This document shows, one piece after another, positions 17,733 through 37,773 of a stretch of 38,115 nt of DNA. This DNA is from a virus. How positions within the stretch are numbered: the first letter of the stretch is position 1; each line of letters opens with the position of its first letter. The translations under genes were made by a program, and so were the position numbers. Location of the stretch: positions 1 through 38,115 of the IMG/VR virus record IMGVR_UViG_3300017776_000050. One strand, written 5' to 3'. The notes beneath the pieces were generated by a model. That model made no database searches and was not told the DNA's origin. It saw nothing but the letters and a program-made list of their open reading frames with translations.

Positions 17733-17740
17733 ACTATTTA
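17733..17740 (+). promoter_or_regulatory. ACTATTTA element, putative late promoter
   Basis: ACTATTTA directly after the bS21-like stop, 32 bases before the fibre-block ATG at 17773. It is the leftmost intergenic copy of the element that recurs before virion genes in the right half of the window. It shares TGATAA about five bases downstream with the copy at 25790. No -35 box is seen, as expected for clamp-dependent T4-type late promoters, but the motif differs from T4 TATAAATA. Confidence 0.45.
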
Positions 17741-17772
17741 ATTCTGATAATGTAACAACAGAGGTATAGTTC

Positions 17773-18573
17773 ATGGCAAATGTAACAAATTACGGATGGG
17801 CGTATGTCCACCCAACGGCTTCTCAAGCACAGGCTAGAGGTGTCGATAAATCAATTCAGTTCTTAACAGGCGCTGTGGATGGAAATGGTATCGGAAAAGG
17901 ATCAGGTTCTGCCAATCTTACTTTTGATTATGCCAATAATCAATTAGTGCTAACAGGAAACATGTCAGCAAGTGGACACATATCTGCTTCTACGTATCAT
18001 GGTGATGGATCTAATCTGTCAAATATTGGTACCTTTCCTTTTTCTGGTTCTGCGATAATAACAGGATCTTTAAACGTCACAGAGGGTATCACTGCTTCAA
18101 ATTATTTGATACAAAATACTTTCGAAGTTAATAGCAGTGGATCATCTGATTTTGGAAACACCAATGACGATAACCATATTTTCACTGGATCTCTTATGGT
18201 TGGGGCATCCGGATCAAATATTGATGTACATTATATTTTGGCTAGCAGTCAATTGAAGGTACCCGGACTAAGGGTGAATTACCGTTCAGTAGCCTCTACA
18301 GCGTTTTCTGCATCACAGTCTGATTATATAATAGGTGTCTCTGCTAATGCCAGTACTGCTGTTACTATAGAGTTGCCCGACGCATCAGGTAATTCTGGCT
18401 CGTTATTGGTAATTAAAGATGAAGCAGGGGGTGTAAGATCTTCTGGTAATGCAATTGCTGTATCTGCCTCTTCTGGAGATACAGTTGAAAATACCACTGG
18501 TGTTGAGATTGCTGGAACTATGGCGTCTAAGACGTTCTATTCCAACGGTGACACTAAGTGGTTCGTGATATAG
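17773..18573 (+). CDS. Fibre-like virion protein
   Basis: A 266-residue Ser/Gly/Thr-rich protein. It has a GHISASTYHGDGSNLSNI segment, common in phage fibre and baseplate-wedge-associated proteins, which recurs in the protein at 23539-24984 (SASTYYGDGSNLSGV). A C-terminal domain (about 180-266: DYIIGVSA, LLVIKDEAGG, ending FYSNGDTKWFVI) is also present at the end of the protein at 22317-23441 (DRIIGVTS... LYSNGSSAYFIY). This suggests a shared folding or trimer-tip module. Receptor binding or head-fibre function is inferred. It starts behind AGAGGT and is followed 10 bases later by the giant gene. Confidence 0.65.
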   Translation: MANVTNYGWAYVHPTASQAQARGVDKSIQFLTGAVDGNGIGKGSGSANLTFDYANNQLVLTGNMSASGHISASTYHGDGSNLSNIGTFPFSGSAIITGSLNVTEGITASNYLIQNTFEVNSSGSSDFGNTNDDNHIFTGSLMVGASGSNIDVHYILASSQLKVPGLRVNYRSVASTAFSASQSDYIIGVSANASTAVTIELPDASGNSGSLLVIKDEAGGVRSSGNAIAVSASSGDTVENTTGVEIAGTMASKTFYSNGDTKWFVI

Positions 18574-18583
18574 GGTATAAAAT

Positions 18584-21500
18584 ATGGCTTATAATTCTTT
18601 GAGTGGAACGGTAATCGGCCCAGACAAAATCGTAGCAAAATCAGATGGAACATTTACTCAGTTAACCGGAACCATATCTGGATCTTATATAAACTCTGAT
18701 GGCGCACCCGTGTCTTTTGCCGATATTGCCACTGGCTCAGGCGGAGGAACAATTGGTGATGCAGAAGATGGATCATACACTGATGGATTATTCACTGACT
18801 TTCATACGGGCACTGCTGTAGGCGTACCTATTGACAGGTATAATGAATTATTTAAATCTCTTGTACCTCCACCAGCACCTGCTGTTTCTAGAACAGACGC
18901 GACACAAGATGGAACGGATGCTTTTCTTTCCTTTGGTGCCTCAAACAATATGGAATCAGATGGTACTCCATACTTTTCTGTAGGTACAGCCGCAGGGTTT
19001 GCCGCTGTGGATAAAGGCGAGATATACGAAACTACAACAACTGGTAATAACTTTAGACGATCTATATTCAAACTAGACACAAATATTACTGGTGTGGTTA
19101 ATTTTCACGTTTCGGCATCAGTACTAGGATCTATTACGAATTATGAAGCAGATGCTTTTGGAAATGCAGAGACAGGATCTTTACAACTTTTTGTTAACAA
19201 TACTTCATCCGCTGTCCACACTTTAAACCTAGCAACTGCAACAGGTGGCGGAATACCCGGAGCAGGCTCAAGTTCATCCTTAAACACATCAGGATCAGGT
19301 TTCACAAACATTTCTGTCACATCTTCAGCAAAAGACGCCAACAACAATACATTCGATTTGTTCCAACACAGGACTGCGAGGTATGTTGTTCATTCCGCGT
19401 CCCAAAGAAGAGGTTGGAATTACGCTTTCATAAGACACACTCTAGGGGCAACAAATTATAATACTAACTTTATCGAGTGGGTTAATGATGACAATGCTGT
19501 CAATGTCACAATCACTGGTGACACTTTGACAGGAATCAATCTAAGTGGATCTAGATATTTATCTGGAGTCCGATATAACACCAGTGCAACCGCCAACTAT
19601 CAATTTTTGATTTCTAATTTTTATAAAAATGTATACACTCTGGCAACAGTGACATGTTCTGACTCTACATCAAATGCATCAATTGCAAACACAACAATGC
19701 CACATATTGGAGGCGATGATGAAAATAAGACTGTCGCCCTTACTCAATCACTGACAACAACGGATACAATTATTCTAAATGAATCTATCGGAGCCACATC
19801 TTCGGTAACTCATGTATTCAAAGGAGCGGCAACGTCCAATACAAGTATGTCTGGGTTTTTAATATTCACACCTTCAGTTGGCAGTGCCACAAACACACAA
19901 GAGTTTTTCAAAGATGAGGCAACATTTAGGCTTGCTTCTGCTTCTTATGATTCTCAAGGATCTGTGGTTACTGGATCTTGGAATAGTCAGACTCACATGA
20001 CTGGCTCTGGGAATCACTCAGACGGGCTACAACTATATAACCAAAAACTAGTTTCCCCTCTAAACACTACAAATGGTGGCAACTTCTCTACAATTGCTAA
20101 TACAGAAGCAGGTAATCCAAATTATTCATCTGTTTCCGGAACTAGAACATTCTATAGAGCATTTAAGAATGCAGGATCTCAACAGCGTGACGCATCTATT
20201 ACAATCAAAGGATCGGCAACAATTGTATCTAGTCAAGCATCTTTAGGAGCAAATGCAAATGTTAGAGTTCTTGTCAAGACTCCGGGACAAACAGATTGGA
20301 TGAACTTGGCTACAAACTTTACTTTCAATGATGTCTCTGAAGGTGCTGGCGCAAATGAACTTGGGCTTGATGCGACAATTGATGGAGCAGGCGCAGTTAA
20401 TGTTGCAACCCTTGGTACCAAGTATATCTCAACAAATGAGTTTTTATTGGTGAAGATTGAAGCAGATGCTGCATGGACAGGCAATATTACAGAAATATCT
20501 GTTGTGTTTGGAGCAGGATCTGGATCTCCAACATACGGAGTAAGTCTAGATGATATCAATGAGAATACTTCAAATAATGGATCAACAGCCAAACTTTCGT
20601 TTGGGACTAGCAAGGCGATCTCAGGATATACAAGCGTCGTGGCATCTCCAAATATCAATGGAGAAGTAGATATTAACGAGACTTGGACTCCAAATACTGG
20701 ATTAACCAACCAAAGACTAGGGATATACAACAAAACAATAGACATTACAGCCTTGTTGAATGATTCTGGAGAATCTTACAGGATTGATTCAGGTTCTGCA
20801 GGTAATTTAAAACTGTTCATAAATGGCGCAGAACGTCATTCTATAGACTTTTCATCTTTTGGCAGTGGTAGTAGCCTAAATTCATCCGGAAGTGGCTTCA
20901 CGAGTGTCTCAGCAGTTGAATATCCTACATATTCTAATAATGTTCATGACTACACTCGTCCATTTAGAACTGGATCTTTAATTGTTGATACAAATGATCA
21001 AAGAAACGGATGGAACTTCGTGAGAGTCATTCATAGTGGTACGTTCGGAGAACTATCTTCAAGTTATATTGAGTGGATCAATGATGATGATTCTTCTAGT
21101 ATCACAGTTGCCGGTGGTGCCATATCTAATTTCGTAAATGATGGTACAATCTATTACAGTTCAGGCATTAAACATTTTGCTACTGCCCCATCCGCATCTT
21201 TCACGCTAACTTCTAGCAACAACTATAAAAATGTATATGATGATGATTCAAGCGACGCTATCGATTTCAATGATACTTTGACGAATGTCACAATCACAGC
21301 AATGACTGCTAGCGGTGGCGGTATCAACTCTTTGACTGACTCTAACGGAGTTTCTGCATATCCAACTCTTTTGACATCTGCTGGAGCAGAAACTGGAAGT
21401 GTAAACTATAATGTAACATTACAATTCTCTCAAGCGAAATCCCTACAAGGTACCTTTGTGACAGGCGGTGACAAGCATACTGCATCTATTGGTAAGGCAA

Positions 21501-22312
21501 AGTTTCTACAGCCTCCGTTCAATGCTAGTAACAATACTTACACACAGTTCACCACTTCTGATTTTACAACATTTTCCAAAGCAGGGTTCATAAGGTTCAG
21601 TGGATCTGAAACTTCTACAAACAGTAGTTCGCAAGAGCACTTCACGGGAGAAGGGTTTAGATTAGAAAACAGAAATGTAACATACCTGTCTCAATCTAAT
21701 GTAACAGCATCATCAAACTCTTGGGAGCCAGAATACTCTGTAAATGATCAAGGCAACTATCCAAACTATTCAGATGGACTTGTTGTGTTTGACGGCAAAC
21801 TTATTTCTCCTGCTGATGCTGGAGTTGACGGTGATTGTAGAAATGTTGCTGATGGAGGATCATTGCAATCTCCAACAAGTAATGTAGATTACCGGCTAGC
21901 CGGATTAACACAAGGCACTAGAACATATGTGAGATACTTCAAGAATACAACTGGAGGTAGTAAATCAAATGCAACTGTCACACTCTACGGATCGGGCTCT
22001 ATGGAAGATGTATCTGACTCACTAGGAGGAGGTAAGTTTACAGTTGAGGTTAAATTCCCGTCAACTTCTTCTGCCGTTTCTACTGCATGGATTGACTCAG
22101 GATCTCCTTACACTTCTAACAACAAAGATGTTGATGGTGCTGGAGGTTTCGTAGGAGACGGAGGATTGCTACCCCTTACTATCGGCGGTAGCGGAACATC
22201 ATTTACTGTAACTTTTAATGGTGGCTCATGGCTAACCAATCAGTATATGCTCATTCGAGTAAGAGCAAGTGCAAGTTGGGATGGATATATAGATAGGATA
22301 GATATAGGATAA
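18584..22312 (+). CDS. Giant duplicated virion protein, probable fibre/adhesin
   Basis: A 1242-residue protein, Ser/Thr/Asn/Gly rich, almost entirely beta-type, no signal peptide or membrane segment. After an N-terminal module of about 110 residues it contains two related halves (about 110-640 and 667-1242). Paired landmarks: LSFG(A/T)S, S.LN(T/S)SGSGFT, QR.GWN, (F/Y)IEW(V/I)NDD, YKNVY, SDGL...KL(V/I)SP, T(R)TF/Y.R.FKN and a final W(T/D)G.I..I. Such architecture suits an elongated fibre or adhesin with repeated domains. It belongs to the five-gene structural block between protease and scaffold. Its codon use favours A-ending codons, unlike the abundant virion genes, which fits a low-copy protein. 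No named family is recognised. Confidence 0.65.
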   Translation: MAYNSLSGTVIGPDKIVAKSDGTFTQLTGTISGSYINSDGAPVSFADIATGSGGGTIGDAEDGSYTDGLFTDFHTGTAVGVPIDRYNELFKSLVPPPAPAVSRTDATQDGTDAFLSFGASNNMESDGTPYFSVGTAAGFAAVDKGEIYETTTTGNNFRRSIFKLDTNITGVVNFHVSASVLGSITNYEADAFGNAETGSLQLFVNNTSSAVHTLNLATATGGGIPGAGSSSSLNTSGSGFTNISVTSSAKDANNNTFDLFQHRTARYVVHSASQRRGWNYAFIRHTLGATNYNTNFIEWVNDDNAVNVTITGDTLTGINLSGSRYLSGVRYNTSATANYQFLISNFYKNVYTLATVTCSDSTSNASIANTTMPHIGGDDENKTVALTQSLTTTDTIILNESIGATSSVTHVFKGAATSNTSMSGFLIFTPSVGSATNTQEFFKDEATFRLASASYDSQGSVVTGSWNSQTHMTGSGNHSDGLQLYNQKLVSPLNTTNGGNFSTIANTEAGNPNYSSVSGTRTFYRAFKNAGSQQRDASITIKGSATIVSSQASLGANANVRVLVKTPGQTDWMNLATNFTFNDVSEGAGANELGLDATIDGAGAVNVATLGTKYISTNEFLLVKIEADAAWTGNITEISVVFGAGSGSPTYGVSLDDINENTSNNGSTAKLSFGTSKAISGYTSVVASPNINGEVDINETWTPNTGLTNQRLGIYNKTIDITALLNDSGESYRIDSGSAGNLKLFINGAERHSIDFSSFGSGSSLNSSGSGFTSVSAVEYPTYSNNVHDYTRPFRTGSLIVDTNDQRNGWNFVRVIHSGTFGELSSSYIEWINDDDSSSITVAGGAISNFVNDGTIYYSSGIKHFATAPSASFTLTSSNNYKNVYDDDSSDAIDFNDTLTNVTITAMTASGGGINSLTDSNGVSAYPTLLTSAGAETGSVNYNVTLQFSQAKSLQGTFVTGGDKHTASIGKAKFLQPPFNASNNTYTQFTTSDFTTFSKAGFIRFSGSETSTNSSSQEHFTGEGFRLENRNVTYLSQSNVTASSNSWEPEYSVNDQGNYPNYSDGLVVFDGKLISPADAGVDGDCRNVADGGSLQSPTSNVDYRLAGLTQGTRTYVRYFKNTTGGSKSNATVTLYGSGSMEDVSDSLGGGKFTVEVKFPSTSSAVSTAWIDSGSPYTSNNKDVDGAGGFVGDGGLLPLTIGGSGTSFTVTFNGGSWLTNQYMLIRVRASASWDGYIDRIDIG
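18911..20503 (+). repeat. Internal duplication, copy 1 (protein level)
   Basis: Residues about 110-640 of the giant protein. Landmarks: LSFGAS near 115, SSLNTSGSGFT near 231, GWNYAFIRH near 278, FIEWVNDD near 298, KNVY near 345, SDGLQLYNQKLVSP near 480 and AWTGNITEIS near 630. The copies are clearly diverged in DNA, so the duplication is old. Borders are approximate. Confidence 0.65.
20582..22309 (+). repeat. Internal duplication, copy 2 (protein level)
   Basis: Residues about 667-1242 of the giant protein, with the same landmarks in the same order: LSFGTS, SSLNSSGSGFT near 762, GWNFVRVIH, YIEWINDD, KNVY, SDGLVVFDGKLISP, TYVRYFKN and SWDGYIDRID at the very end. It is somewhat longer than copy 1 and contains an extra region before the SDGL segment. 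Borders are approximate. Confidence 0.65.
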
Positions 22313-22316
22313 TATT

Positions 22317-23441
22317 ATGGCTTTACCGGGAACAGGATCAACAAATCAGGCACAAACCATATCTGCTTTCAAAAAGTTAGCAGGTAAGGCTAACACGTCT
22401 ACGCTACGCGAATTTTATGAAGAAACCATTCCATCCAATATTCAGGTAAAGACAGATAGTATTTTCGCAGAAGACATTCCACAAGCAGTATCAGCAGATA
22501 CTTCCGATCTTTATACAAGATACTCTGCCTCTGTTGGGAAGCCACAAACAGTGGAATTTGTAGAATTTACAATTGAATCAGTTCTTGGTACAGATTATGA
22601 TGCCAACACAGGATCATTTGGTACTACTGGTTTTGGTGGTGGTGACGAAGCACAGTCTTCCGGTTTTCATGGATATCAATTAAAACTTCATGGAGACTAC
22701 AATGTCTCTTCATCGAATCCTGTTTCCGGAACTGCACCTTTCTCAAGTTCTCAAGTAGTTCATGAGACAAACGGTGAGTTACAGTTAGTATCTCCTTCTT
22801 TCGGCCCACAATCAGGAAACAACTACACAATACAACTTTATACATCTAAAGGTGGTACTAGAATATTCCCAACAGATCCAATTGATTGGGTTATGGACTA
22901 CTTTAATGGAGTCTTATTTATACAGGACTATAATGCCGCCAAGGTTCCTACGTACGCGGTTGGGTATATCTACACAGGTAAAATGGCATCCACTGCAATT
23001 ACTGATGCTTCTGGATCAGGTGGTGGCTCTAGTATAGTAGTTAAGGACGAGGGTTCAAACATATCAACTGCAGCATCTTCGTTTGACTTTGTTGGTTCTG
23101 GTGTTACTGCAACAAACTCAAGCAATGATATTACAGTTACCATTCCGGGCGGAATTGATTATGGTAGAACAGTCGCTTCTGCATCTTTAACTGCATCCGT
23201 ATCCGACAGGATCATTGGGGTTACCTCAACGGGATCATTGGAGATCAAATTGGCTCCTGCTCAAACCCTCACAGCAGGGCAATACGTTACAATCAAGAAA
23301 GAGGTAAATTCGAATAATCTAGTTACAATCTCGACTTCCGGCTCTCAGACAATAGACGGAGTAACGTCAGTGGTACTAGAATCCCCACATGCCGCAATAA
23401 ACCTGTATTCTAACGGATCCAGTGCCTACTTTATTTATTAG
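22317..23441 (+). CDS. Structural protein with shared C-terminal fibre module
   Basis: A 374-residue protein. The N-terminal 60 residues include a helix (ISAFKKLAGKANTSTLREFYEE) unlike the rest, followed by a beta-type region with YTIQLYTSKGGTRIFPTDPIDWVMDYFNGVLFIQD, the kind of sequence I recall from marine phage structural proteins. A GSGGGSS linker near 235 leads to a domain with IVVKDEGSNIS and then the YSNG-ending module shared with the protein at 17773-18573. It may attach to another virion component by the N-terminus and display the C-terminus. It starts four bases after the giant gene and is the last gene before a 97-base gap. Confidence 0.6.
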   Translation: MALPGTGSTNQAQTISAFKKLAGKANTSTLREFYEETIPSNIQVKTDSIFAEDIPQAVSADTSDLYTRYSASVGKPQTVEFVEFTIESVLGTDYDANTGSFGTTGFGGGDEAQSSGFHGYQLKLHGDYNVSSSNPVSGTAPFSSSQVVHETNGELQLVSPSFGPQSGNNYTIQLYTSKGGTRIFPTDPIDWVMDYFNGVLFIQDYNAAKVPTYAVGYIYTGKMASTAITDASGSGGGSSIVVKDEGSNISTAASSFDFVGSGVTATNSSNDITVTIPGGIDYGRTVASASLTASVSDRIIGVTSTGSLEIKLAPAQTLTAGQYVTIKKEVNSNNLVTISTSGSQTIDGVTSVVLESPHAAINLYSNGSSAYFIY

Positions 23442-23460
23442 TCTTTTTAAGAATTGTTGT

Positions 23461-23469
23461 ACTATATAA
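23461..23469 (+). promoter_or_regulatory. ACTATATAA, variant of the late-promoter-like element
   Basis: In the 97-base gap before the gene at 23539, ACTATATAA differs from the ACTATTTAT consensus at two positions. It is the only candidate in this gap. The remaining gap sequence holds no convincing hairpin and a TTAATTAA near the GGAGGG ribosome site. It is the weakest member of the set. Confidence 0.3.
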
Positions 23470-23538
23470 TAATGATGGGATTCGTACACGCTGCGTTTCC
23501 TGTTTATGCTTAATTAACATAACATGGAGGGTTTAATT

Positions 23539-24984
23539 ATGGCTTATAAATTTCAAATAGGAAGCGCTAAACTTAGCGGTTCTGTAACATCTACCGGTGT
23601 GATTGACGCCGAAGGAGCACTTTCTGGTGCTTTAATCCAAGTTGACGATGCTTCTGGCATCGCTGGTAATGGTTTGGACAATTCGTCTGGAAAATTAACA
23701 ATCGATCTTGATGGATCTACTGGTATTACTGTAGATGCTGATGGTATGTCTTTGGCTTCTATTCCAAATTCATCACTCGCAAACAGTACAATTTCTGGTA
23801 AGGCTCTTGGTGCAAACCTTGATGCATTGTCTGCTGGTAACGGTATTTCGATGACTGCTTACAATGGTTCTGCTGCTGTAAGTAATTTGACTATTGCTCG
23901 CTCTGGTTCAGACGCTTCTGGGCTTAAGTTGAATTCTGATGGTTTGGCTATTCTGGTTTCTGGTTCTACTGGACTTAACTTGACAAATGACGGAATTCGC
24001 TTGAACGCTGTCCCTAATGCATCACTTGCAAACTCTGGTGTAACCTTGTCTCAAGGTGCTGGTATGGCTGCTATGGGCGCTGTCTCTCTTGGTGGTTCTG
24101 TGACTGTTGGTGTTGATGGTGTTCTTGAAGATCTTGATACACTTGGTGCTGCTGCATCTGATGGACAATTCATTGTTGCTACTGGTGCAGGTGCTTTTGC
24201 ATATGAATCTGGTGCTACTGTACGTACTTCTCTTGGACTAGCAATTGGTACTAACGTTCAAGCATTTGATGCTCAACTTGCCGACATTGCTGGCTTGTCT
24301 CCAACTGATGGAAACATCATTATTGGTGATGGTTCAAACTTTGTTCTTGAGTCAGGTGCTACTGCTAGAACTTCTCTTGGATTAGGTACTGGTAATGATG
24401 TGCAGTTCACTGACTTGACTCTTACTGGAGACTTGACAGTACAGGGTACAACCACTACTATTGATACAGACAATTTAACCGTTAAAGACGCTAACATTGT
24501 TCTTCGTCAAGGTGGCGCAGGTAATGCTGATGATATTGGTTTTACTTTCGGTTCTACTTCGAACACTCAAACACTTCAAACCAAAGATTCTTCTGGTACT
24601 CAAAAGTTAGCCTCTTCGTTGCCTTTGTCTGCTTCGACTTACTATGGTGATGGCTCTAACTTGTCTGGCGTTCAGGCAAATAATGCTAGATTGACTGTTA
24701 GTGATCTTGCTGATGTGGCAGTAGTATCTGGTGGACTTTCAGCCGGATTCCATTTTGCTGGTAACTTGAGTCAAGATCAAGTTGTACACTTGTCTTCAAG
24801 TGCCGGTGGTTGGAATGATGGTGAAGTAGTATACATCAAACTTAATGATGCTAACAATACATTGACAGTTACTCCAAGTGGCACAAACCACATCGAAGGA
24901 GTAAATGGGCAGTCAATTGTTCTTGAAACTCAAGGTGCTGCAGTTACACTTGTCAGAAAAGGAACTGGTTTCTTTATCGTCTAA
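23539..24984 (+). CDS. Fibre-like virion protein with tail-fibre repeats, probably abundant
   Basis: A 481-residue protein; the ATG at 23539 sits seven bases after GGAGGG, better than the in-frame ATG at 23524 that overlaps the ribosome site. Residues about 210-285 contain two copies of an (E)SGAT(V/A)RTSLGL(A/G).G unit, a repeat typical of phage tail-fibre and collar-fibre proteins, followed by LTLTGDLTVQGTTTTIDTDN and SASTYYGDGSNLSGV. The C-terminus (ending LVRKGTGFFIV) resembles the end modules of the other fibre genes. Unlike them it uses GCT, GGT, ACT and TCT codons heavily, as the capsid and sheath genes do. It has its own terminator, suggesting a separately expressed, high-copy virion component. 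Confidence 0.65.
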   Translation: MAYKFQIGSAKLSGSVTSTGVIDAEGALSGALIQVDDASGIAGNGLDNSSGKLTIDLDGSTGITVDADGMSLASIPNSSLANSTISGKALGANLDALSAGNGISMTAYNGSAAVSNLTIARSGSDASGLKLNSDGLAILVSGSTGLNLTNDGIRLNAVPNASLANSGVTLSQGAGMAAMGAVSLGGSVTVGVDGVLEDLDTLGAAASDGQFIVATGAGAFAYESGATVRTSLGLAIGTNVQAFDAQLADIAGLSPTDGNIIIGDGSNFVLESGATARTSLGLGTGNDVQFTDLTLTGDLTVQGTTTTIDTDNLTVKDANIVLRQGGAGNADDIGFTFGSTSNTQTLQTKDSSGTQKLASSLPLSASTYYGDGSNLSGVQANNARLTVSDLADVAVVSGGLSAGFHFAGNLSQDQVVHLSSSAGGWNDGEVVYIKLNDANNTLTVTPSGTNHIEGVNGQSIVLETQGAAVTLVRKGTGFFIV

Positions 24985-25024
24985 TTTTCGAATTGGATTA
25001 TAATTTTGACAAGATTATTCTTGG

Positions 25025-25052
25025 AGGGTTGGGCGAAAGTCCAACCCTTTTT
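25025..25052 (+). terminator. Rho-independent terminator after the fibre-like gene
   Basis: AGGGTTGG pairs with CCAACCCT (eight pairs), continued by a G-U pair and a C-G pair closing a GAAA tetraloop (CGAAAG), followed by TTTTT. This is a textbook terminator. The next promoter-like element starts right after the T tract. Confidence 0.9.
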
Positions 25053-25060
25053 CTATTTAT
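25053..25060 (+). promoter_or_regulatory. CTATTTAT element, putative late promoter
   Basis: CTATTTAT adjoins the U tract of the terminator, and an AAGGAG site plus ATG at 25078 follow within 18 bases. If it is a -10 element the leader would be very short. Member of the recurrent ACTATTTA(T/C) set, here with T in the first position. Confidence 0.4.
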
Positions 25061-25077
25061 AAAAAAAGGAGATTCAC

Positions 25078-25749: not shown

Positions 25750-25789
25750 TAGAATAAATTAATTGTAAAGGTTTTTTATAATTAAAGTC

Positions 25790-25797
25790 ACTATTTA
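25790..25797 (+). promoter_or_regulatory. ACTATTTA element before the scaffold gene
   Basis: ACTATTTA followed by ATGTTGATAA in the 80-base gap before the scaffold ATG at 25830; an AATAGGAG ribosome site lies between. The downstream TGATAA matches the copy at 17733. Putative late promoter of the scaffold-capsid unit. Confidence 0.45.
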
Positions 25798-25829
25798 ATG
25801 TTGATAAACTATTAATAGGAGTTTTATTT

Positions 25830-28771: not shown

Positions 28772-28809
28772 AAAGCCTCTTTCTCTTATGGGATTGGGGC
28801 TTTTGTTTT
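28772..28809 (+). terminator. Terminator after the major capsid gene
   Basis: AAAGCCTC pairs with GGGGCTTT (eight pairs, one T-G) across a loop of about 16 bases, followed by TTGTTTTA. This would end the scaffold-capsid transcript. Confidence 0.8.
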
Positions 28810-28816
28810 ATATAAG

Positions 28817-28825
28817 ACTATTTAT
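28817..28825 (+). promoter_or_regulatory. ACTATTTAT element before the structured leader
   Basis: ACTATTTATATG directly after the capsid terminator. If this is a late promoter, transcripts would start near 28832 and carry the roughly 120-base structured leader before the ATG at 28953. Confidence 0.5.
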
Positions 28826-28849
28826 ATGTGACTTGAATTTGTTCTCCTT

Positions 28850-28932
28850 GGGACGGGGCGGCTGTCCCTAGAAAGATCTATACCGAGGCCGCTGGTATAT
28901 TTCATTGAATAGAATCATGTTATTGCAATAAC
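28850..28932 (+). ncRNA. Structured leader RNA with two hairpins and complementary loops
   Basis: Hairpin 1: GGGAC (28850-28854), a nine-base loop, GTCCC (28864-28868). Hairpin 2: TATACC (28879-28884), a nine-base loop, GGTATA (28894-28899). The loops contain GCGGC (28858-28862) and GCCGC (28888-28892), which are exactly complementary and could form a five-GC kissing interaction, seven pairs with flanking G-U. A perfect 14-base palindrome GTTATTGCAATAAC follows at 28919-28932, just before AAGGAGG. The loops are far more GC-rich than the surroundings. It may control translation or stability of the following abundant-protein gene; no known riboswitch class is recognised. Confidence 0.55.
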
Positions 28933-28952
28933 CATATAAGGAGGATTATATT

Positions 28953-29537
28953 ATGGGAAGTAGAAGATTAGGACGTAAAAGAATTAAGTCTCTCTCGTCA
29001 AGAGGCGTATCCGACACAATTACAGCAGGAGTAAATGCTCCAATTGTAACACGTCAAACAACTATGAGAGTAGGAAACAAAATCATTACCGAGATTAGTG
29101 TTGATTTGGGCGGTGGAAACACAGAAACAAGTACTGCTACTGTTGATCAGATTATTGGTAAAGGAAGTGCAACTGAAGCATGTCAAATTGCAGTAATCTC
29201 ATTGGCTACTCACGGGCATATCACATTTGCTGAGATTGCATGCTTAGAGGCTCCAACCACCGGACAGCCTGATATTGATTTGGTTGCAGGCGCAAACGCT
29301 ACTGATGATCAAGGTGCTACTGTAACTGGTGTTCAAAAACTTGTAGAAGCAGGTGGTGCTCACTCATTAGGATCAAGAGTTGGATCTGCTGCCTCTCTTG
29401 TAAACTTTGATACAGATGCTGATGTGAATCTTTATCTTGTGACTGGTGCTGGTTCTACTGCTGGTGCATACGATGCTGGTAAGTTGCTTATCACTTTGGA
29501 AGGAATTGCTTCTGATGCTGTTCCTGATCACGGATAA
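28953..29537 (+). CDS. Virion protein following the capsid gene, decoration-type candidate
   Basis: A 194-residue protein with a very basic N-terminus (MGSRRLGRKRIKSLSSRG) and a beta-rich body (NKIITEISVDLGGGNTE, IIGKGSATEACQIAVISLATHGHITFAEIACLEAP, DADVNLYLVTGAG, KLLITLEGIA). I remember an (R)RLGRKR...EI(T/S)VDLG family placed after gp23 in marine T4-like phages; the name and site in the particle are not known to me. Position behind the capsid gene, its own promoter-like element and T-ending codons suggest an abundant capsid-associated protein. The AAGGAGG site is well placed. An alternative is a vertex or head-completion protein. Confidence 0.6.
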   Translation: MGSRRLGRKRIKSLSSRGVSDTITAGVNAPIVTRQTTMRVGNKIITEISVDLGGGNTETSTATVDQIIGKGSATEACQIAVISLATHGHITFAEIACLEAPTTGQPDIDLVAGANATDDQGATVTGVQKLVEAGGAHSLGSRVGSAASLVNFDTDADVNLYLVTGAGSTAGAYDAGKLLITLEGIASDAVPDHG

Positions 29538-29548
29538 GGAGTATTATC

Positions 29549-29692
29549 ATGAGTTTTAGAAACCATATTATCTCCAAGGCTCAAGAGGAAGCACTAAAGC
29601 CAAAGCCTGCTAAAAAGGCACCTGCTAAGAAGGTTGTCAAAAAGCAAGCAAAGGTTGTTTCGTCTAAACCTGAAGAGAAAAAAGAAGAATAG
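29549..29692 (+). CDS. 47-residue lysine-rich protein
   Basis: An ATG at 29549, with AAGGAG at 29537-29542, opens a 47-codon frame ending TAG at 29690-29692. After a short N-terminal part (MSFRNHIISKAQEE) the protein is built of Ala-Lys-Pro units (KPKPAKKAPAKKVVKK), similar in composition to histone H1 tails, and ends acidic (PEEKKEE). It could bind DNA or RNA, or be an internal head component. Ribosome site, spacing and the terminator right after it support a real gene. Confidence 0.6.
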   Translation: MSFRNHIISKAQEEALKPKPAKKAPAKKVVKKQAKVVSSKPEEKKEE

Positions 29693-29714
29693 AATAATTC
29701 TTATTTTCAAAATT

Positions 29715-29748
29715 AAGCCCTGATCGTATGATCGGGGTTTTCTGTTTT
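29715..29748 (+). terminator. Terminator after the lysine-rich small gene
   Basis: CCCTGATC pairs with GATCGGGG (one T-G) around the tetraloop GTAT, extended by an AAG/TTT base, and followed by TTTTCTGTTTT. Confidence 0.85.
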
Positions 29749-29751
29749 ATT

Positions 29752-29760
29752 ACTATTTAT
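29752..29760 (+). promoter_or_regulatory. ACTATTTAT element, putative late promoter
   Basis: ACTATTTAT three bases after the terminator's T-rich tail, followed by AAGGAG and the ATG at 29782. The leader would be short. Confidence 0.45.
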
Positions 29761-29781
29761 TATACCAAAAAGGAGTATATA

Positions 29782-30084
29782 ATGGGCAAAAAAAGAAGAG
29801 CGATGTTTAATCCAAAGTTTAAGAACTCACATCCAGATCTGTGGAAACTAGGAAGAAAGTTATTAGGAATACCCACAGAAGAAGAGTTGGAAGAAAAAAG
29901 ACTTGAAGAAGCCAGACTCAAAGCCGAAGCAGAGGCAAAACTTAAAGCAGAGCAGGAAGCAAAACTCAAGGCAGAACAAGAAGCCAAACTTAAAGAAGAA
30001 AAAGAAACGAAGAAAAAGACTGCCACTAAAAAGACTACTAGGAAACGACGTACTACTACTAAAAAGGCAAAGAAAGAAGATTAA
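29782..30084 (+). CDS. Charged single-helix protein with basic tail
   Basis: A 100-residue protein; the ATG at 29782 follows AAGGAG, whereas the frame upstream to 29728 runs through the terminator and is not used. N-terminal 35 residues: MGKKRRAMFNPKF and HPDLWKLGRKLLGIP. Then residues 44-75 are four tandem eight-residue units of A(K/R)LKAE(Q/A)E type, expected to form a long charged alpha helix as in TolA. The tail is Lys/Arg/Thr-rich (KKKTATKKTTRKRRTTTKKAKK). A nucleic-acid-binding or head-interior role is possible. It is the second Lys-rich small gene in a row after the capsid region. No named family. Confidence 0.6.
   Translation: MGKKRRAMFNPKFKNSHPDLWKLGRKLLGIPTEEELEEKRLEEARLKAEAEAKLKAEQEAKLKAEQEAKLKEEKETKKKTATKKTTRKRRTTTKKAKKED
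29911..30006 (+). repeat. Four tandem 24-base coding repeats
   Basis: Four 24-base units encode ARLKAEAE, AKLKAEQE, AKLKAEQE and AKLKEEKE. Units two and three are identical in protein but differ in synonymous positions, so expansion is not recent or synonymous drift has been fast. Confidence 0.75.
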
Positions 30085-30103
30085 ACCTTTTCTCCCTACA
30101 CTA

Positions 30104-30112
30104 ACTATTTAT
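30104..30112 (+). promoter_or_regulatory. ACTATTTAT element before the neck genes
   Basis: ACTATTTATAAAG with GGAGGG and the ATG at 30133 close behind. It would drive the gp13-gp14-gp15 group. No hairpin terminator is seen between it and the preceding gene. Confidence 0.45.
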
Positions 30113-30132
30113 AAAGAATGGAGGGACTTTAA

Positions 30133-31422: not shown

Positions 31423-31426
31423 CTAA

Positions 31427-31924
31427 ATGTCAAAAAAAGATAATAAATGGACACAACCAACAGCGCCACCACCTCCCCTGTTCACAGGGAAGAAGGAGCG
31501 TGATCTTGTTAAACAAGTCAATGACGAGATCATCGAAAGAGTTATTGGGCAAACTATTGCCTATTATCCAATCGATTACGACACAACAGATTTTCATCCA
31601 ATATACGGAGAAGCGATTGAAAAGAACTTTCTTCCACCTATTAGAGTTCATGCACTTGTTGAGTGGGAAGGAATTCAGTCGGCATACACAGAAAAGATTG
31701 GAATTGATAAACAATCTACAATCACAGTTCATTTTCATAAGAGAAGGTTGACAGAAGATCAGAACCTGTTCGTAAGAGAAGGGGATTTTGTATTGTATGG
31801 TGATCTACACTATCAGATAGTATCTTTAATGGAACCTAAAAGATTATATGGACAAATAGAGCACAGATTAGAAATAAGTGCCAAATGCGTACGAGCAAGA
31901 GAGGGAGTATTTAATGGGGAATAA
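31427..31924 (+). CDS. 14: Neck protein (gp14-like)
   Basis: A 165-residue protein with a Pro-rich N-terminal stretch (TAPPPPLF), then KQVNDEIIERVIGQTIAYYPIDYDTTDFHPIYGEAIEK and a beta-type part with VREGDFVLYGDLHYQIVSLMEP. The layout parallels T4 gp14: a helix followed by a Tyr-rich segment and FGEDLK, a short strand region with EGDLIYFP and EINWVEP, then a region starting GQ. T4 gp14 is 256 residues, so this is a shorter version. It would bind gp13 and complete the head-tail joining site. The gene lies four bases after gp13 and its 3' end overlaps gp15 by 11 bases. Confidence 0.65.
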   Translation: MSKKDNKWTQPTAPPPPLFTGKKERDLVKQVNDEIIERVIGQTIAYYPIDYDTTDFHPIYGEAIEKNFLPPIRVHALVEWEGIQSAYTEKIGIDKQSTITVHFHKRRLTEDQNLFVREGDFVLYGDLHYQIVSLMEPKRLYGQIEHRLEISAKCVRAREGVFNGE

Positions 31925-32834
31925 CAGACAAGGGCTAGAGTTTCAGCCATCAACAATCGAAACTATTGACATTGCAATGTATAATTTTGTCACAGGGCTT
32001 AATTTACATGCCAGCACCAACAAAGGATTTGTCCCAACTCCAATCATATGGGTTGGAGCGGAAAGAACCTTTCAAGTCAAGAATGATCTAACCCTTAGAG
32101 ATTCAGAAGGGCTTCTCAAGATCCCTCTGATCACGATAGAAAGGAAAGAGATGACAAGAGATCCCTCTAAGGCTCCATTGCCAGCAAACATCCCAGATTA
32201 CGGATTTGGAGGCTACATACCTGTTCGAAGAAGAGTTGTTCAGTCCAAGACTAGTAATTTCAAAAACGCTCATAATTTAAAAAAGTATGGTGGGGATGAT
32301 GATGTAGGATTTACAGATGCGTTTCTAAAAAGTGGTAGGGCTTTTCCTTCGAATATTAACCCTATGTTTGACACACGTCCTCCAAATTTAAAAGACAAGA
32401 CAGTATATGAGACTGTGTACATCCCTGTACCTGTATATGTCAGTGTTAAATACGAAGTACATATTAGAACAGAATATATGACACAAATGAATCAATTGTT
32501 AACCCCATTTATATCAGCAAACTCTAGATTGGGAAGAAACAGCAAATATATTACATTAGGGCATGACAATCACTTTTTCGAAGGCTTCATAGACAACTCC
32601 TATACAAATGACAATAATGCAGCAAAACTCGATGAAGAAGAGAGGATATTTAACTCCACTATTAGTATTGATGTACTGGGATATCTTATAGGTGGCAATG
32701 ACAACGAGAACAGCAATTTGGCTAAATCATATGAAAACATTGTTCAGGTTAAAGTCTCTAGAGAAAGAGTAGGATTATCCGATAAACACGACAGATCAAA
32801 CAGAAGTGGCACAGATCCTTTCTATAAGGAATAA
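31914..32834 (+). CDS. 15: Tail terminator / sheath stabiliser (gp15-like)
   Basis: A 306-residue protein starting at ATG 31914 behind GAGGGAG; upstream in-frame residues overlap gp14 and lack a ribosome site. Features shared with T4 gp15 (272 residues): LLKIPLITIERKEM, a strand-helix PVYVSVKYEVHIRTEYMTQMNQLLTPFIS (T4 has the same strand, then TRYEDDM), and ERIFNSTISIDVLGYLIGG near the C-terminus. gp15 caps the finished tail tube and sheath and docks on the neck. The C-terminus is Arg/Ser/Asp-rich and probably flexible. The following 101-base gap carries the next promoter-like element. Confidence 0.75.
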   Translation: MGNNRQGLEFQPSTIETIDIAMYNFVTGLNLHASTNKGFVPTPIIWVGAERTFQVKNDLTLRDSEGLLKIPLITIERKEMTRDPSKAPLPANIPDYGFGGYIPVRRRVVQSKTSNFKNAHNLKKYGGDDDVGFTDAFLKSGRAFPSNINPMFDTRPPNLKDKTVYETVYIPVPVYVSVKYEVHIRTEYMTQMNQLLTPFISANSRLGRNSKYITLGHDNHFFEGFIDNSYTNDNNAAKLDEEERIFNSTISIDVLGYLIGGNDNENSNLAKSYENIVQVKVSRERVGLSDKHDRSNRSGTDPFYKE

Positions 32835-32872
32835 AAAACAATTTTTGTTAATTTCTTTTGAACAAAACAGCA

Positions 32873-32880
32873 ACTATTTA
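32873..32880 (+). promoter_or_regulatory. ACTATTTA element before the tail sheath gene
   Basis: ACTATTTACTATGAAA, a 16-base string repeated exactly before the tail tube gene at 35901. It lies 55 bases ahead of the sheath ATG at 32936. The gap also contains a weak AACAA/TTGTT hairpin near 32838 with T-rich sequence after it. Confidence 0.5.
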
Positions 32881-32935
32881 CTATGAAAGTTTTTATATTA
32901 ATAAAACTAAGACTGTTAACAAAGGAGAAAACAAC

Positions 32936-35857
32936 ATGTCAATAGATAAATTTAGATTTGTATCTCCCGGTGTTCAGGTTGCTGAAATAGATCAATCTCG
33001 CAGAACTCGTCCTTCTGCCGAACCCGGCCCACTAATCATTGGACGATTTGAAAGAGGGCCGACTATGCGCCCTGTTAAGGTAGATTCTTTACAAGAACTA
33101 TCAGAAATTTTTGGTGATCCAATCACCGGTAGAGAGTCAGGCGACGTGTCTCGTAATGGAAACTTCTCTGCCCCTTCTTACGCTGCTTTCGCAGCAAATG
33201 CTTGGCTAGCAAATCAAGGTGGTGCAACCATTCTTCGTTTGGTTGGAAAGCAACACTCACAAGCAGACGCAACCCTAGGTGAAGCAGGTTGGAATACAAC
33301 TTCTTCCGCTGATGGTGGCGGTGGTGCTTGGGGACTTTGGATTGTTCCTTCGGCATCTAGCAAAGAAATGACTGGTACTCTTGGTGCCATCTTTTACACG
33401 AAAGAGCACGTAGGTGTTGTCCTTTCTGGTACTCTTGGAGGATCATCTGACGTTGCTCAGGCTGCATCAACTTACTTCAAGTTCACAGGCGGATCAAGCG
33501 CTAACATTAAGGCTCTTGTGATCAGTGGTTCAGACACAACTTCTTCTGTACAGACTGCTGTTGAGAATCAAAGTTTTAACTTTAATCCTCAGTCTAGACA
33601 ATTTATCAGAAAAGTGTTCAATACGACTCCACACTTAACTAATGCTGCAACAACGCCAACTTCTGCTACTTCTAACGGAGAGTATAAATACTGGCTTGGC
33701 GAAACATTTGAAGATAAAGTTGGAGAGTTGATTGAAAGTGCTGGTAATGCACGTCCTCTTTTTGCATTTACTGCTCCATTGGTTTCATCATCGGCGTATT
33801 ACTCAGATCACACATTTCAGGCTCAGCCTTCGAAAACTGGATGGGTAGTATCTCAAGATACCTCAACTGATCATGCTGCTTACTCATTTACTAATATGCA
33901 AAAGTTGTTCCGATTTGTTTCTTTAGAAGAAGCAGAGTGGACTCAAAGAAACTTAAAGATATCTATTAGAAATATTAGACTTCCAAATGCAAACTCTGAT
34001 GCAAATGCTTATGGATCTTTTGACGTTCAAATTCGTAAAATTTCTGATACAGATGCTAGAGTAGATGCAGTAGAAACTTATGTTGGATGTAACTTAAACC
34101 CAGCATCTCCAAACTACATTGCCAACAAGATCGGCGATCAGTATATCGAATGGAATGACACCGAAAAAAGATATCGCTTCTTCGGCGCTTTCCCTAATAA
34201 TTCAAAATATATTCGTGTCGAAATGGCATCTGAAGTTGATGAAGGTGCGATCACAGAAGAATTAGTTCCATTTGGATTTTATGGACTTCCTAAGCCTGCA
34301 ACTGTGCAAATTCAAGGTGGTGGTTCTGCTGGGAACGGTGATCAAGCATTTATTCAAGATCAAGAAACCTCTGCTTTTGTGGCTGATGGTGTTAGTCTAT
34401 CTGCTAGAGGGAGTGGTTGCATCCGGGTTAATCCGGGAGGATCAACTGCTAATGCTATTACTGCATCCCTAGAGTGGCCGGCTCCTAAGTTAGTTGGATC
34501 TGCTTCGTTGTCATCATTGTCCGATGCTACAGATCGTTACTTTGGTATTGACTTGTCCAGACAAGGAACTTCTACTCAACTTGATCAATCTGTCCGTGAT
34601 TTATTTAAGGCAAGAGGTGCAGGATTATCAGACAACAACTGGGATACTACTGGCAATATGATAAATTCTCAGAATTTCTCTTTGGATGATGTCTCCGGTT
34701 CTGAAGATCCTAACGTAACTCAGACTGGATTTGTTTATGTCGCTGGTTCTCGTGCCGCAGGTAACTCTTGGACTGCACAACCGTCTTCAGGTACTACTGA
34801 CTTAATTTCTGCTGGTTATGACAAATTCACCATGCCTCTTTATGGCGGTTTTGATGGACTGGATATCCAACAAATGGAACCACTTGTTAATAATACACTT
34901 GTTTCCGGAAAAACAATGCAAAATTCTTATGAAAAGAATACTCTTATGAGAGCAATTGATACAGTTGCAGATCCGGAAATTGTCGATTTGAATCTTTTGG
35001 TTCTTCCCGGCGTAACTGATACTGGAGTTACCGATCACATGATCAACACTTGTGAAAGACGAAGAGATGCAATGGCTATTGTTGATATCCAATATGCATA
35101 CACTCCACGTCACGAAAGTGCTGATCCTTCAGAATCTGGAAGAAACGGCGTAAGTGGTGGAAATACAGTAACTGCTGCAGTTAATACAGTCAGACAACAA
35201 GGATACAATTCTTCTTACGCTGCATGTTACTATCCTTGGGTTCAAGTTCGTGCTCCTATTACTGGGCTTCCAACTTGGGTACCACCTTCAGTTGTAGCAC
35301 TTGGTGCAATGTCCTATAGTCAAGCGACTCAAGCAGTTTGGTTTGCTCCTGCAGGATTCACTCGTGGTGGACTTTCTGAAGGGCGTGGTGGATTACCAGT
35401 AGTTGGTGTTTCTCAGAGATTGTCTTCTAAAGAGCGTGACTCTTTGTATGAAAACAATATCAACCCAATTGCTCAGTTCCCTGCAGAAGGAATTGTTATC
35501 TTCGGACAGAAGACACTTCAAGCAACACCATCAGCATTAGATAGAATTAATGTTCGTCGTTTGATGATTTTCATTAAGAAGAGAATTTCTAATATCGCTG
35601 CTAGATTGTTGTTCGAGCCAAACGTTTCTACAACTTGGGCAAGTTTCACATCTCAGGTTGCCCCTTTCTTGGATTCAATCAAGACTGGCTTTGGGCTAGA
35701 TGACTTTAGAGTTGTTCTGGATTCAACTACCACAACTGCTGATCTTATTGATAGAAACACGATGTATGCTAAGATTTTCGTTAAGCCAACTAAAGCAGTT
35801 GAGTTTATCGCAATTGATTTCGTCATCACAAATCAAGGTGCATCTTTTGATGACTAA
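32936..35857 (+). CDS. 18: Tail sheath protein (gp18-like)
   Basis: A 973-residue contractile sheath subunit. The ATG at 32936 follows AAAGGAG; a TTG in frame at 32858 lies across the promoter-like element and is rejected. The N-terminus FVSPGVQVAEIDQSRRTR, then GPLIIGRFERGP, is typical, as is the C-terminal part with FGQKTLQATPSALDRINVRRLMIFIKKRI and the last strand VEFIAIDFVITN. T4 gp18 is 659 residues; the extra length is in the middle (about 100-650), where surface domains are inserted. Many T-ending codons mark high expression, as expected for a protein present in more than a hundred copies. Confidence 0.93.
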   Translation: MSIDKFRFVSPGVQVAEIDQSRRTRPSAEPGPLIIGRFERGPTMRPVKVDSLQELSEIFGDPITGRESGDVSRNGNFSAPSYAAFAANAWLANQGGATILRLVGKQHSQADATLGEAGWNTTSSADGGGGAWGLWIVPSASSKEMTGTLGAIFYTKEHVGVVLSGTLGGSSDVAQAASTYFKFTGGSSANIKALVISGSDTTSSVQTAVENQSFNFNPQSRQFIRKVFNTTPHLTNAATTPTSATSNGEYKYWLGETFEDKVGELIESAGNARPLFAFTAPLVSSSAYYSDHTFQAQPSKTGWVVSQDTSTDHAAYSFTNMQKLFRFVSLEEAEWTQRNLKISIRNIRLPNANSDANAYGSFDVQIRKISDTDARVDAVETYVGCNLNPASPNYIANKIGDQYIEWNDTEKRYRFFGAFPNNSKYIRVEMASEVDEGAITEELVPFGFYGLPKPATVQIQGGGSAGNGDQAFIQDQETSAFVADGVSLSARGSGCIRVNPGGSTANAITASLEWPAPKLVGSASLSSLSDATDRYFGIDLSRQGTSTQLDQSVRDLFKARGAGLSDNNWDTTGNMINSQNFSLDDVSGSEDPNVTQTGFVYVAGSRAAGNSWTAQPSSGTTDLISAGYDKFTMPLYGGFDGLDIQQMEPLVNNTLVSGKTMQNSYEKNTLMRAIDTVADPEIVDLNLLVLPGVTDTGVTDHMINTCERRRDAMAIVDIQYAYTPRHESADPSESGRNGVSGGNTVTAAVNTVRQQGYNSSYAACYYPWVQVRAPITGLPTWVPPSVVALGAMSYSQATQAVWFAPAGFTRGGLSEGRGGLPVVGVSQRLSSKERDSLYENNINPIAQFPAEGIVIFGQKTLQATPSALDRINVRRLMIFIKKRISNIAARLLFEPNVSTTWASFTSQVAPFLDSIKTGFGLDDFRVVLDSTTTTADLIDRNTMYAKIFVKPTKAVEFIAIDFVITNQGASFDD

Positions 35858-35869
35858 AAAATAATTATA

Positions 35870-35902
35870 GTGGGAGCACTAGTCTTTTACTGTTGCTCTC
35901 AC
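35870..35902 (+). terminator. Hairpin between sheath and tube genes
   Basis: GTGGGAGCA pairs with TGCTCTCAC (nine pairs, one G-T) with a 15-base loop that could itself pair AGT with ACT. No T tract follows, so it may be an mRNA-stability element rather than a terminator. Its last bases overlap the next ACTATTTA element. Confidence 0.5.
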
Positions 35903-35908
35903 TATTTA
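35901..35908 (+). promoter_or_regulatory. ACTATTTA element before the tail tube gene
   Basis: ACTATTTACTATGAAA, identical over 16 bases to the element before the sheath gene. It lies 40 bases ahead of the tube ATG at 35949, with TTGGAGG between. Confidence 0.5.
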
Positions 35909-35948
35909 CTATGAAAACAAATTACAAATTTTTTTGGAGGAATTATAA

Positions 35949-36650
35949 ATGGCTTTTTGGAATGACAAAATCGTAGAACCTAAACGTAAGTTTAGATGGT
36001 TGCTGAGTATTAATGGGATCCCTTCTTGGACTATTAAGAAAGTAAATCGCCCAACATATGAAGTGGCAGAGGCGGAACACAAATTTATTAATCACACTTT
36101 CTATTTTCCGGGACGTGTAACCTATAATACCGTGTCTTTCACTGTTGTAGATACTTCTTCACCTGATGCTGCTGAGACACTCAAGCAAATGCTTTATGCT
36201 GGTGGTTATGCCCTACCTAAAGACGAGTTGGCTTCAACTCAGACTTTGACTAAGAACGGATCTGTATCTGCTCTTGGTAGAGTTAGCATTGAATTGCTTG
36301 GTGGTGGTGGTGCTGACTCTCAACCCAACACTAGAACTGGTGGTTTTGGTGCTGGTAGTGGTAGAGTGTCAAATAGCGCTAATGATGGTTATAATGATGA
36401 AGGAACGGTACTTGAAAAGTGGACTCTTCACAATGCTTGGATCAAGAAAATTGAATTCAGCGAATTAGACTATGAAGGTGATGATCTTACTGAAGTAACT
36501 GTTGAACTTCGTTATGACTATGCAGAATTGAATGACACCAAGGTTGGTGCTGTATATGGAACTCTCAATGTAGATGCGGATCGCGAGCCTTCAGGCTTGA
36601 ACGGCAACTATGAAGTACCATTCGGCGATGTACCTGAGCGTCAAGATTAA
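35949..36650 (+). CDS. 19: Tail tube protein (gp19-like) with Gly-rich insertion
   Basis: A 233-residue tube subunit. The N-terminal RKFRWLLSINGIPSWTIKKVNRPTYEVAEAEHKFINHTFYFPGRVTYNTVSFTVVD and C-terminal LHNAWIKKIEFSELDYEGDDLTEVTVELRYDYAEL are characteristic of gp19. T4 gp19 is about 163 residues; here a Gly/Ser/Asn-rich segment at about 118-155 (GGGGADS, GGFGAGSGR) is inserted before the last strands, plus a short acidic tail. Its subunits stack as rings inside the sheath. T-ending codons predominate. The start follows TTGGAGG. Confidence 0.92.
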   Translation: MAFWNDKIVEPKRKFRWLLSINGIPSWTIKKVNRPTYEVAEAEHKFINHTFYFPGRVTYNTVSFTVVDTSSPDAAETLKQMLYAGGYALPKDELASTQTLTKNGSVSALGRVSIELLGGGGADSQPNTRTGGFGAGSGRVSNSANDGYNDEGTVLEKWTLHNAWIKKIEFSELDYEGDDLTEVTVELRYDYAELNDTKVGAVYGTLNVDADREPSGLNGNYEVPFGDVPERQD

Positions 36651-36674
36651 TAAAATATTCTCTTTGGAGGCTTA

Positions 36675-37547
36675 ATGAGAAATAACGATGAGAGAACAGG
36701 GGCTGTTGAACAACCTAGCAGCCCTGCCCCATCTCTACAACAAGGGCAAAAGGGACTTAACTTTGTTTCACCAACAGAGTTTGTTGAAATCCCATCTAAA
36801 GGTAAATTCTATCCGTCTGGACATCCGCTTCATGGTGTGGAAGCAGTGGAAATCAGACACATGACGGCTAAAGAAGAAGATATTCTTTCTTCTAAGACTC
36901 TGTTGAAACAAGGCGTGGCTATTGATCGTTTCTTGGAATCTGTTTTGGTTGACAAACGAATCACAACAGATCAGTTGCTTGTAGGGGACAAGAATGCCCT
37001 TATAATCGCTGCAAGGATCTCTGGTTATGGTAATGACTATCAAGCGGCTGTTGGGTGCCCTAATTGCGGCTCTCAGAACAAATGCGAGGTTGATTTGCTA
37101 GAGGCTAAAAGCGCATATGCTGGTGCTTTTGACGAATCGCACGAAGGAATTGCTCCTGAAGGCATTGCCGGCCCTAACTCTTCTGGATTCTACCACATCA
37201 CTCTGCCTGCTACACAGGCTGTGTTTGAAGTGAGAATGATGACAGGTAGAGAAGAGAAGGCTTTCGCTAAACGTATGGAACAAAGAAAGAAAAGAAAACA
37301 ATCTGAGGCTATGCTCACAGATCAGTTTAAAACTTTTACAGTTTCAATCAATGGAGTAGGTGATCTAAAGCAAGTATTTAGATTTATCGATAATCTACCT
37401 GTTCGAGATTCAAGATTTTTGAGACAAGCATATGCTAAGATCTCTCCGGCACTCAACCTAAAGCATGATTTCATGTGTACTGAGTGTGATCACGAACAGG
37501 AGGTTGAAGTGCCCATCACGGCACAGTTTTTTTGGCCTGACGCCTGA
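36675..37547 (+). CDS. 26: Baseplate hub protein (gp26-like)
   Basis: A 290-residue member of the T4 gp26 baseplate family. Conserved parts: FVEIPSKGKFYPSGHPL, MTAKEEDILSS, LLVGDKNALIIAARISGYG and a CPNCG (C128, C131) with a later CTEC (C268, C271), which together could bind zinc. T4 gp26 is about 208 residues, so this is a longer form. A Lys/Arg-rich helix (FAKRMEQRKKRKQ) lies at about 197-210. The gene ends in FFWPDA; at the last FF the DNA holds seven T in a row, and the +1 frame continues into the next conserved-looking protein. TTTGGAGG precedes the start. Confidence 0.82.
   Translation: MRNNDERTGAVEQPSSPAPSLQQGQKGLNFVSPTEFVEIPSKGKFYPSGHPLHGVEAVEIRHMTAKEEDILSSKTLLKQGVAIDRFLESVLVDKRITTDQLLVGDKNALIIAARISGYGNDYQAAVGCPNCGSQNKCEVDLLEAKSAYAGAFDESHEGIAPEGIAGPNSSGFYHITLPATQAVFEVRMMTGREEKAFAKRMEQRKKRKQSEAMLTDQFKTFTVSINGVGDLKQVFRFIDNLPVRDSRFLRQAYAKISPALNLKHDFMCTECDHEQEVEVPITAQFFWPDA
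37527..37533 (+). other. Run of seven T, candidate +1 frameshift site
   Basis: In the gp26 frame the codons are TTT TTT TGG. A tRNA-Phe in the P site on the second TTT could slip forward one base and still pair perfectly, giving FF then GLTPEFMEQV in the +1 frame. The gp26 frame ends 12 bases later. Overlapping frames joined by slippery sequences are common in tail-assembly genes of other phages (lambda G/GT, mostly -1). Simple translation coupling is the alternative. Confidence 0.35.
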
Positions 37548-37551
37548 GTTT

Positions 37552-37728
37552 ATGGAGCAAGTCTATGAGCAATTCTTCTTAATGAAATATTATGGAGGAT
37601 GGAGTTTCATAGAAGCCTATAATCTACCTGTTTCGCTCAGAACTTGGTTTATTGAGAGATTGTCTAAACAAATCAAGGATGAAGCAGAAGCAAACAAGAA
37701 GGCTATGCAAAAAAGCAAAAGAAGGTAA
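37552..37728 (+). CDS. Small helical protein downstream of gp26, baseplate/tail assembly candidate
   Basis: A 58-residue protein if started at the ATG at 37552, four bases after the gp26 stop. The sequence MEQVYEQFFLMKYYGGWSFIEAYNLPVSLRTWFIERLSKQI resembles unnamed proteins that I remember directly after gp26 in T4-like marine phages and the C-terminal parts of tail-assembly chaperones. There is no Shine-Dalgarno sequence near the ATG, so expression must come from coupling or from the frameshift at 37527. The frame is open upstream, inside gp26, to 37465. The tail is Lys-rich (KKAMQKSKRR). A terminator hairpin begins at the stop codon. Confidence 0.6.
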   Translation: MEQVYEQFFLMKYYGGWSFIEAYNLPVSLRTWFIERLSKQIKDEAEANKKAMQKSKRR

Positions 37729-37756
37729 AGCAGAGATGAAAGTCTCTGCTTTCTTT
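37727..37756 (+). terminator. Terminator after the gp26 unit
   Basis: AAAGCAGAGA pairs perfectly with TCTCTGCTTT (ten pairs) around a six-base loop, followed by CTTTG. Confidence 0.85.
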
Positions 37757-37764
37757 GTATATAC

Positions 37765-37773
37765 ACTATTTAT
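37765..37773 (+). promoter_or_regulatory. ACTATTTAT element before the last gene
   Basis: ACTATTTATGATAAGG just after the terminator, 23 bases before the ATG at 37797. Another terminator-element pair. Confidence 0.45.

Follow-up and report, generated by a model that had tools for sequence, protein, structure and literature searches.

In bacteriophage T4 the -35 region of late promoters is not conserved, gp55 is sigma-like in domain 2 only, and a separate protein, gp33, acts as a sigma-4 mimic; the sliding clamp gp45 is the activator, and about one helical turn separates the late box from the start downstream (PMC2988020). The same review raises the question of why a fused late sigma is missing, or has at least not turned up (PMC2988020). 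For the Far-T4 phages, a genome study of 2015 reported finding none of the T4 core genes for transcription and did not settle how transcription is controlled (PMC4360716), and the transcriptome of Ma-LMM01 gave sigma70-like promoters only, with no phage-specific motif. The titles and abstracts of the open-literature matches listed contained no report of ACTATTTA as a promoter motif in T4 relatives.

Here we analysed a virus record of 38,115 bases (the window), which appears to be a genome fragment; its genes all lie on the + strand and include virion genes of the T4 superfamily. The nearest relatives of its major capsid protein, those of Flavobacterium phage immuto, Microcystis phage Mel-JY01 and Rhodothermus phage RM378, place it on the Far-T4 side of the family. 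We consider it probable that a recurrent intergenic element in this DNA marks the two-box late promoters of a Far-T4-type phage, read by a gp55-family sigma with an extra C-terminus. Such a promoter would have two boxes on the coding strand: the strong one, ACTA(T/A/C)TTA, would take the position of T4's TATAAATA at about -13 to -6, and (G/T)GCTTTT would lie about 13 nt upstream of it.

Like the T4 late promoter, that of the clade would have one strong box of 8 bp, placed about a turn upstream of the start, would be served by a gp55-family sigma and stands before virion genes. The T4 box and the clade element have the frame NN-TA-NN-TA in common and nothing more. The Aeh1 late consensus has a/gC at -13/-12, as does the clade element. 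The clade differs from T4 in having ACTATTTA rather than TATAAATA and a conserved upstream box, and in a sigma with an additional C-terminal domain. RM378 has an enriched gene-sense TTATTTAA that shares the core TATTTA, but it has no phased upstream T-box and its annotated sigma belongs to phrog_1740 (ECF-like); a phrog_234 search of RM378 gave no match. In immuto and Mel-JY01, (A/C)TATTTAT precedes virion genes and distant homologues of the clade sigma occur, but ATATTTAT predominates and the upstream box is weak or different. The phased T-box was not clearly seen in immuto, Mel-JY01, RM378 or T4.

The element in the window and in related genomes

We found the element at every position where it had been predicted. 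Eight copies are exact intergenic ACTATTTA, the site at 25053 reads CTATTTAT with a T before it, and that at 23461 reads ACTATATAA (Table 1). Intergenic copies number 8 in 1,609 bases, compared with 2 in 36,506 coding bases (at 12787 and 15223) and none on the minus strand, which bears out the claim that the element is much rarer inside genes. ACTATTTAY has seven matches in the window, all on the + strand, where 1.1 were expected, and none of 100 shuffles reached that number. The copies before the sheath and tube genes do share 16 identical bases, ACTATTTACTATGAAA. Those at 29752 and 32873 fall within mechanically called ORFs; we count them as intergenic because ATG starts with good Shine-Dalgarno sequences lie at 29782 and 32936. 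The terminators ahead of 25053, 29752 and 37765 are taken from the mechanical list.

Table 1. Predicted late-promoter elements, upstream boxes and leader RNA in the window
Feature	Position	Strand	Context
Late element ACTATTTA	17733..17740	+	40 nt before gene 17773; without upstream T-box
Variant element ACTATATAA	23461..23469	+	before gene 23524/23539; phased CTTTTT box at about -18
Variant element TCTATTTAT	25052..25060	+	25 nt before gene 25078; directly 3' of terminator 25023-25050; without phased T-box
Upstream (-30) box GGTTTTTT	25770..25777	+	belongs to predicted 25790 promoter
Late element ACTATTTA	25790..25797	+	before scaffold-like gene 25830; also before orthologues in G021 and G022
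Upstream (-30) box GGGCTTTT	28797..28804	+	of predicted 28817 promoter; overlaps hairpin and its T-run
Late element ACTATTTAT	28817..28825	+	after major capsid gene; followed by conserved structured leader RNA
Conserved pseudoknotted leader RNA	28828..28955	+	outer helix pairs Shine-Dalgarno of gene 28953
Late element ACTATTTAT	29752..29760	+	after terminator 29715-29740, before ATG 29782; T-box off by 2 nt
Upstream (-30) box with TTTT, AACCTTTT	30084..30091	+	of predicted 30104 promoter
Late element ACTATTTAT	30104..30112	+	before gene 30133 (PHROG head-tail adaptor Ad2); also before G021 and G022 orthologues
Upstream (-30) box with TTTT, TTCTTTTG	32853..32860	+	of predicted sheath promoter
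Late element ACTATTTAC	32873..32881	+	before tail sheath gene (ATG 32936)
Upstream (-30) box AGTCTTTT	35881..35888	+	of predicted tube promoter
Late element ACTATTTAC	35901..35909	+	before tail tube gene 35949
Upstream (-30) box TCTGCTTT	37745..37752	+	of predicted 37765 promoter; overlaps terminator 37727-37752
Late element ACTATTTAT	37765..37773	+	before gene 37797; also before orthologues in G021 and G022

Since all genes of the window lie on the + strand, the strand specificity of the element needed testing in other genomes. We used 80 IMG/VR loci with capsid proteins 60-78% identical, and the motif was not assumed in the search. Among 8-mers enriched in the intergenic gaps of these relatives, ACTATTTA ranked first, occurring in 181 of 391 same-strand gaps, with 1.2 expected from coding sequence and no antisense copy in these gaps; ACTAATTA and ACTACTTA came next. 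The same pipeline run on T4 yielded TATAAATA. The consensus in the clade is ACTA(T>A>C)TTA. Contigs stored with minus-strand genes carry the element on the minus strand, and forward and reverse copies in the near-complete genomes stand at 51:4, 42:4, 19:0 and 25:1. At least one third of the copies in genomes sit within genes.

Gene class and separation from sigma70 promoters

In two relatives, G021 and G022, the element precedes the orthologues of the scaffold-like, adaptor, sheath, tube and 37797 genes, and in G022 a wedge gene as well. These two genomes have no element before the SSB, RecA/UvsX-like and helicase genes, nor across the glycosyltransferase block. Gaps without the element were rich in sigma70 motifs (CTTGACA, 44 versus 3.4; GTATAAT, 26 versus 1.7), and in G022 two TTGACA/TATAAT promoters precede SSB and helicase. 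Element and sigma70 promoter occurred together in 3 gaps only (table 233/128/53/3, p=7.8e-7), and just 3 of 131 element gaps scored at least 11 of 12 against the host promoter TTGACA-17-TATAAT. In the cultured phages immuto and Mel-JY01, the genes that (A/C)TATTTAT precedes are those for the portal, tube, hub and other virion proteins, with terminase and sheath in addition in immuto, and replication genes essentially lack it.

The original prediction of a late promoter unlike T4's TATAAATA is strongly supported by the enrichment, the strand, the gene class, the separation from sigma70 promoters and the position of the leader RNA described below. The elements are very likely late promoters, and in the cell they would be expected to act as such, while host sigma70 promoters would serve the early and replication genes instead.

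The canonical TTGACA/TATAAT pair is not known to fit Bacteroidota promoters. The early-type promoters of 11 clade contigs have this canonical form, which is at odds with one paper that places many Far-T4 phages with Flavobacteriales, and the host of these contigs may differ from that order.

Upstream box, leader RNA and probable start site

Over 267 sites in the clade, the upstream box (G/T)GCTTTT lies at -20 to -13 from the element, about 13 nt before it. The earlier statement that no -35 is visible is thus wrong for the clade. The box is no by-product of terminators, because hairpin-free sites keep it (TTT starting at -16 in 38 of 75). In the window, a phased TTT starting at -17 to -15 from the element was present at 7 of 10 sites and absent at 3, with a shuffle mean of 1.25 and none of 20,000 shuffles as high. 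The architecture of these sites is one of two boxes, as can be read directly from the sequence. The proposed pairing of terminator and element exists but does not define the element, because the enrichment of terminators in element gaps is weak and not significant (23 of 98, versus 34 of 222 gaps without the element; p=0.08). Where a terminator was present, it preceded the element in 22 of 23 gaps, and in 15 of these 22 its stem ended 9-15 nt before the element, so that its GC arm and T-run mostly coincide with the upstream box or lie close to it.

In sequence and in position, 12+/-1 bp upstream of the -10 element, the upstream box matches the MotA box of T4, TGCTTtA (PMC2988021), and in both respects it resembles the T4 middle promoter, which combines a MotA box with a sigma70 -10 (PMC2988021). 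The elements could accordingly be late or middle promoters at which a gp55-like (or host) sigma sits on ACTATTTA and a separate MotA-like activator binds the upstream box. However, the MotA domains PF09158 and PF09114 were found in T4 and in no clade contig, and we rejected a MotA system for this reason. Moreover, the lower box lacks the TATAAT that middle promoters have at -10, and the element marks late genes, not replication genes, which have sigma70-type promoters without it. We regard a separate activator as unlikely, and a gp55-family sigma reading both boxes as the better account.

The probable start site is indicated by a conserved leader RNA. We chose 37 leader loci by their RNA pattern, without reference to the element, and in all 37 ACTA(T/A/C)TTA was found 10-11 nt before the first base of the RNA model. 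The leader (alignment A5, 37 loci) has five helices including a pseudoknot, and its outer helix, UUCUCCUU/AAGGAGAA, pairs the Shine-Dalgarno sequence. Paired states accounted for 98.6% of cells, compared with 43-62% in slid controls, and 11 pairs showed two-sided changes. A search of Rfam gave no match to the leader, which is a candidate for a new cis-regulatory RNA of the virion gene that follows the major capsid gene. The base preceding its invariant ACT is a purine in every aligned sequence, with 12-13 nt separating it from the element's first A. Transcription would begin at this purine, probably at about 28829-28830 in the window, and a start 12-13 nt past the first base of the element would fit the T4 geometry (element at -13 to -6).

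The element is specific to the transcribed strand and close to start codons (median 40 nt), as might be expected if it acted at the RNA level, as a site for processing or a signal for translation. We consider this highly improbable: it may stand as little as 9 or as much as 260 nt from the start codon, a phased DNA box lies upstream of it, it replaces sigma70 promoters, and the conserved leader RNA starts after the element and not across it. Least credible is the reading that places ordinary late promoters of the T4 type on the opposite strand. In its favour, ACTATTTATA has the reverse complement TATAAATAGT, and the copies at 28817 and 30104 read backwards give the exact T4 late consensus. We rejected this reading of TATAAATA on the strand counts (0 antisense copies in 391 gaps). 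In addition, a final A or C in many copies breaks the match to T4, the sense side holds both the phased box and the leader RNA, and RM378, which has genes on both strands, shows the related TATTTAA facing genes in 23 cases and opposing them in 7.

A gp55-family sigma in the relatives

If the elements are late promoters, a phage sigma of the T4 gp55 family would bring host RNA polymerase to them. A Pfam Sigma70_r2 search over 20 records gave one weak match, which was the route to such a protein. In G003, with a capsid protein 70% identical to that of the window, a 235-aa protein matches phrog_234, the T4 gp55 family. All 28 aligned homologues of this sigma matched phrog_234 (best 4.4e-9), and a phrog_234 sigma was present in 7 of 7 clade contigs tested, each of which also has the capsid gene. 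The distant homologues in immuto and Mel-JY01 are 27-29% identical, C-terminal domain included. With the full sigma model, the best PDB matches in Foldseek were sigma factors at modest E-values (0.025-0.4); hhalign of alignment A1 against a single T4 gp55 sequence was not significant. The sigma gene does not lie within the 38-kb window, whose own phage presumably carries the same gp55-family sigma.

Past its gp55-like part, the sigma has an extra, strongly conserved C-terminal domain with NKKAIYLYxREITGLNTKQ as the longest invariant run and a predicted fold of four helices with a helix-turn-helix (pLDDT 88). Foldseek with the isolated domain returned nothing below E=1 and, at E>1, only assorted helix-turn-helix and other proteins, and there was no Sigma70_r4 Pfam match in the clade sigma. 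In bacteria, reading the upstream box is the job of sigma region 4. The position of the domain and the presence of the upstream box suggest that it may be a sigma region 4. The sigma-2-like part would then read ACTATTTA and the extra helix-turn-helix-like domain would most likely read the upstream box, and it is plausible that one fused sigma reads both. We searched for gp33 (phrog_254) and found it in T4 and P-HM1 but not in the clade, where a diverged gp33 could escape detection. Whether the Far-T4 phages have a natural fused late sigma, in which a gp55-type sigma-2 joined to a C-terminal domain reading the -30 box replaces the split gp55/gp33, seems to us evenly balanced. If so, the clade sigma may be the fused late sigma that the T4 review found missing from nature.

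A second protein with the C-terminal domain of the sigma (NKKAIYLYIREITGLSTKQIV) and a different N-terminus is encoded in G022 (L178:1154-1840; G022 181154-181840), and is possibly a second phage sigma. Because this paralogue has the same C-terminal domain, either protein may be the one that reads the element.

For the abundant and mostly uncultured Far-T4 group, these results predict a late promoter, a sigma and a split of early and late genes, which can be used in annotating many contigs.

The gene content of these phages offered two further observations. Within its head gene cluster the window encodes a phage ribosomal protein S21 (17514-17732), which is also found in Mel-JY01 (22183-22410), and in G021 a late element precedes the S21 orthologue. 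At 4191-7358 of the window, one open frame of 1,055 aa joins SbcD-like and SbcC-like (gp47/gp46) domains and is a fusion of two T4 genes.
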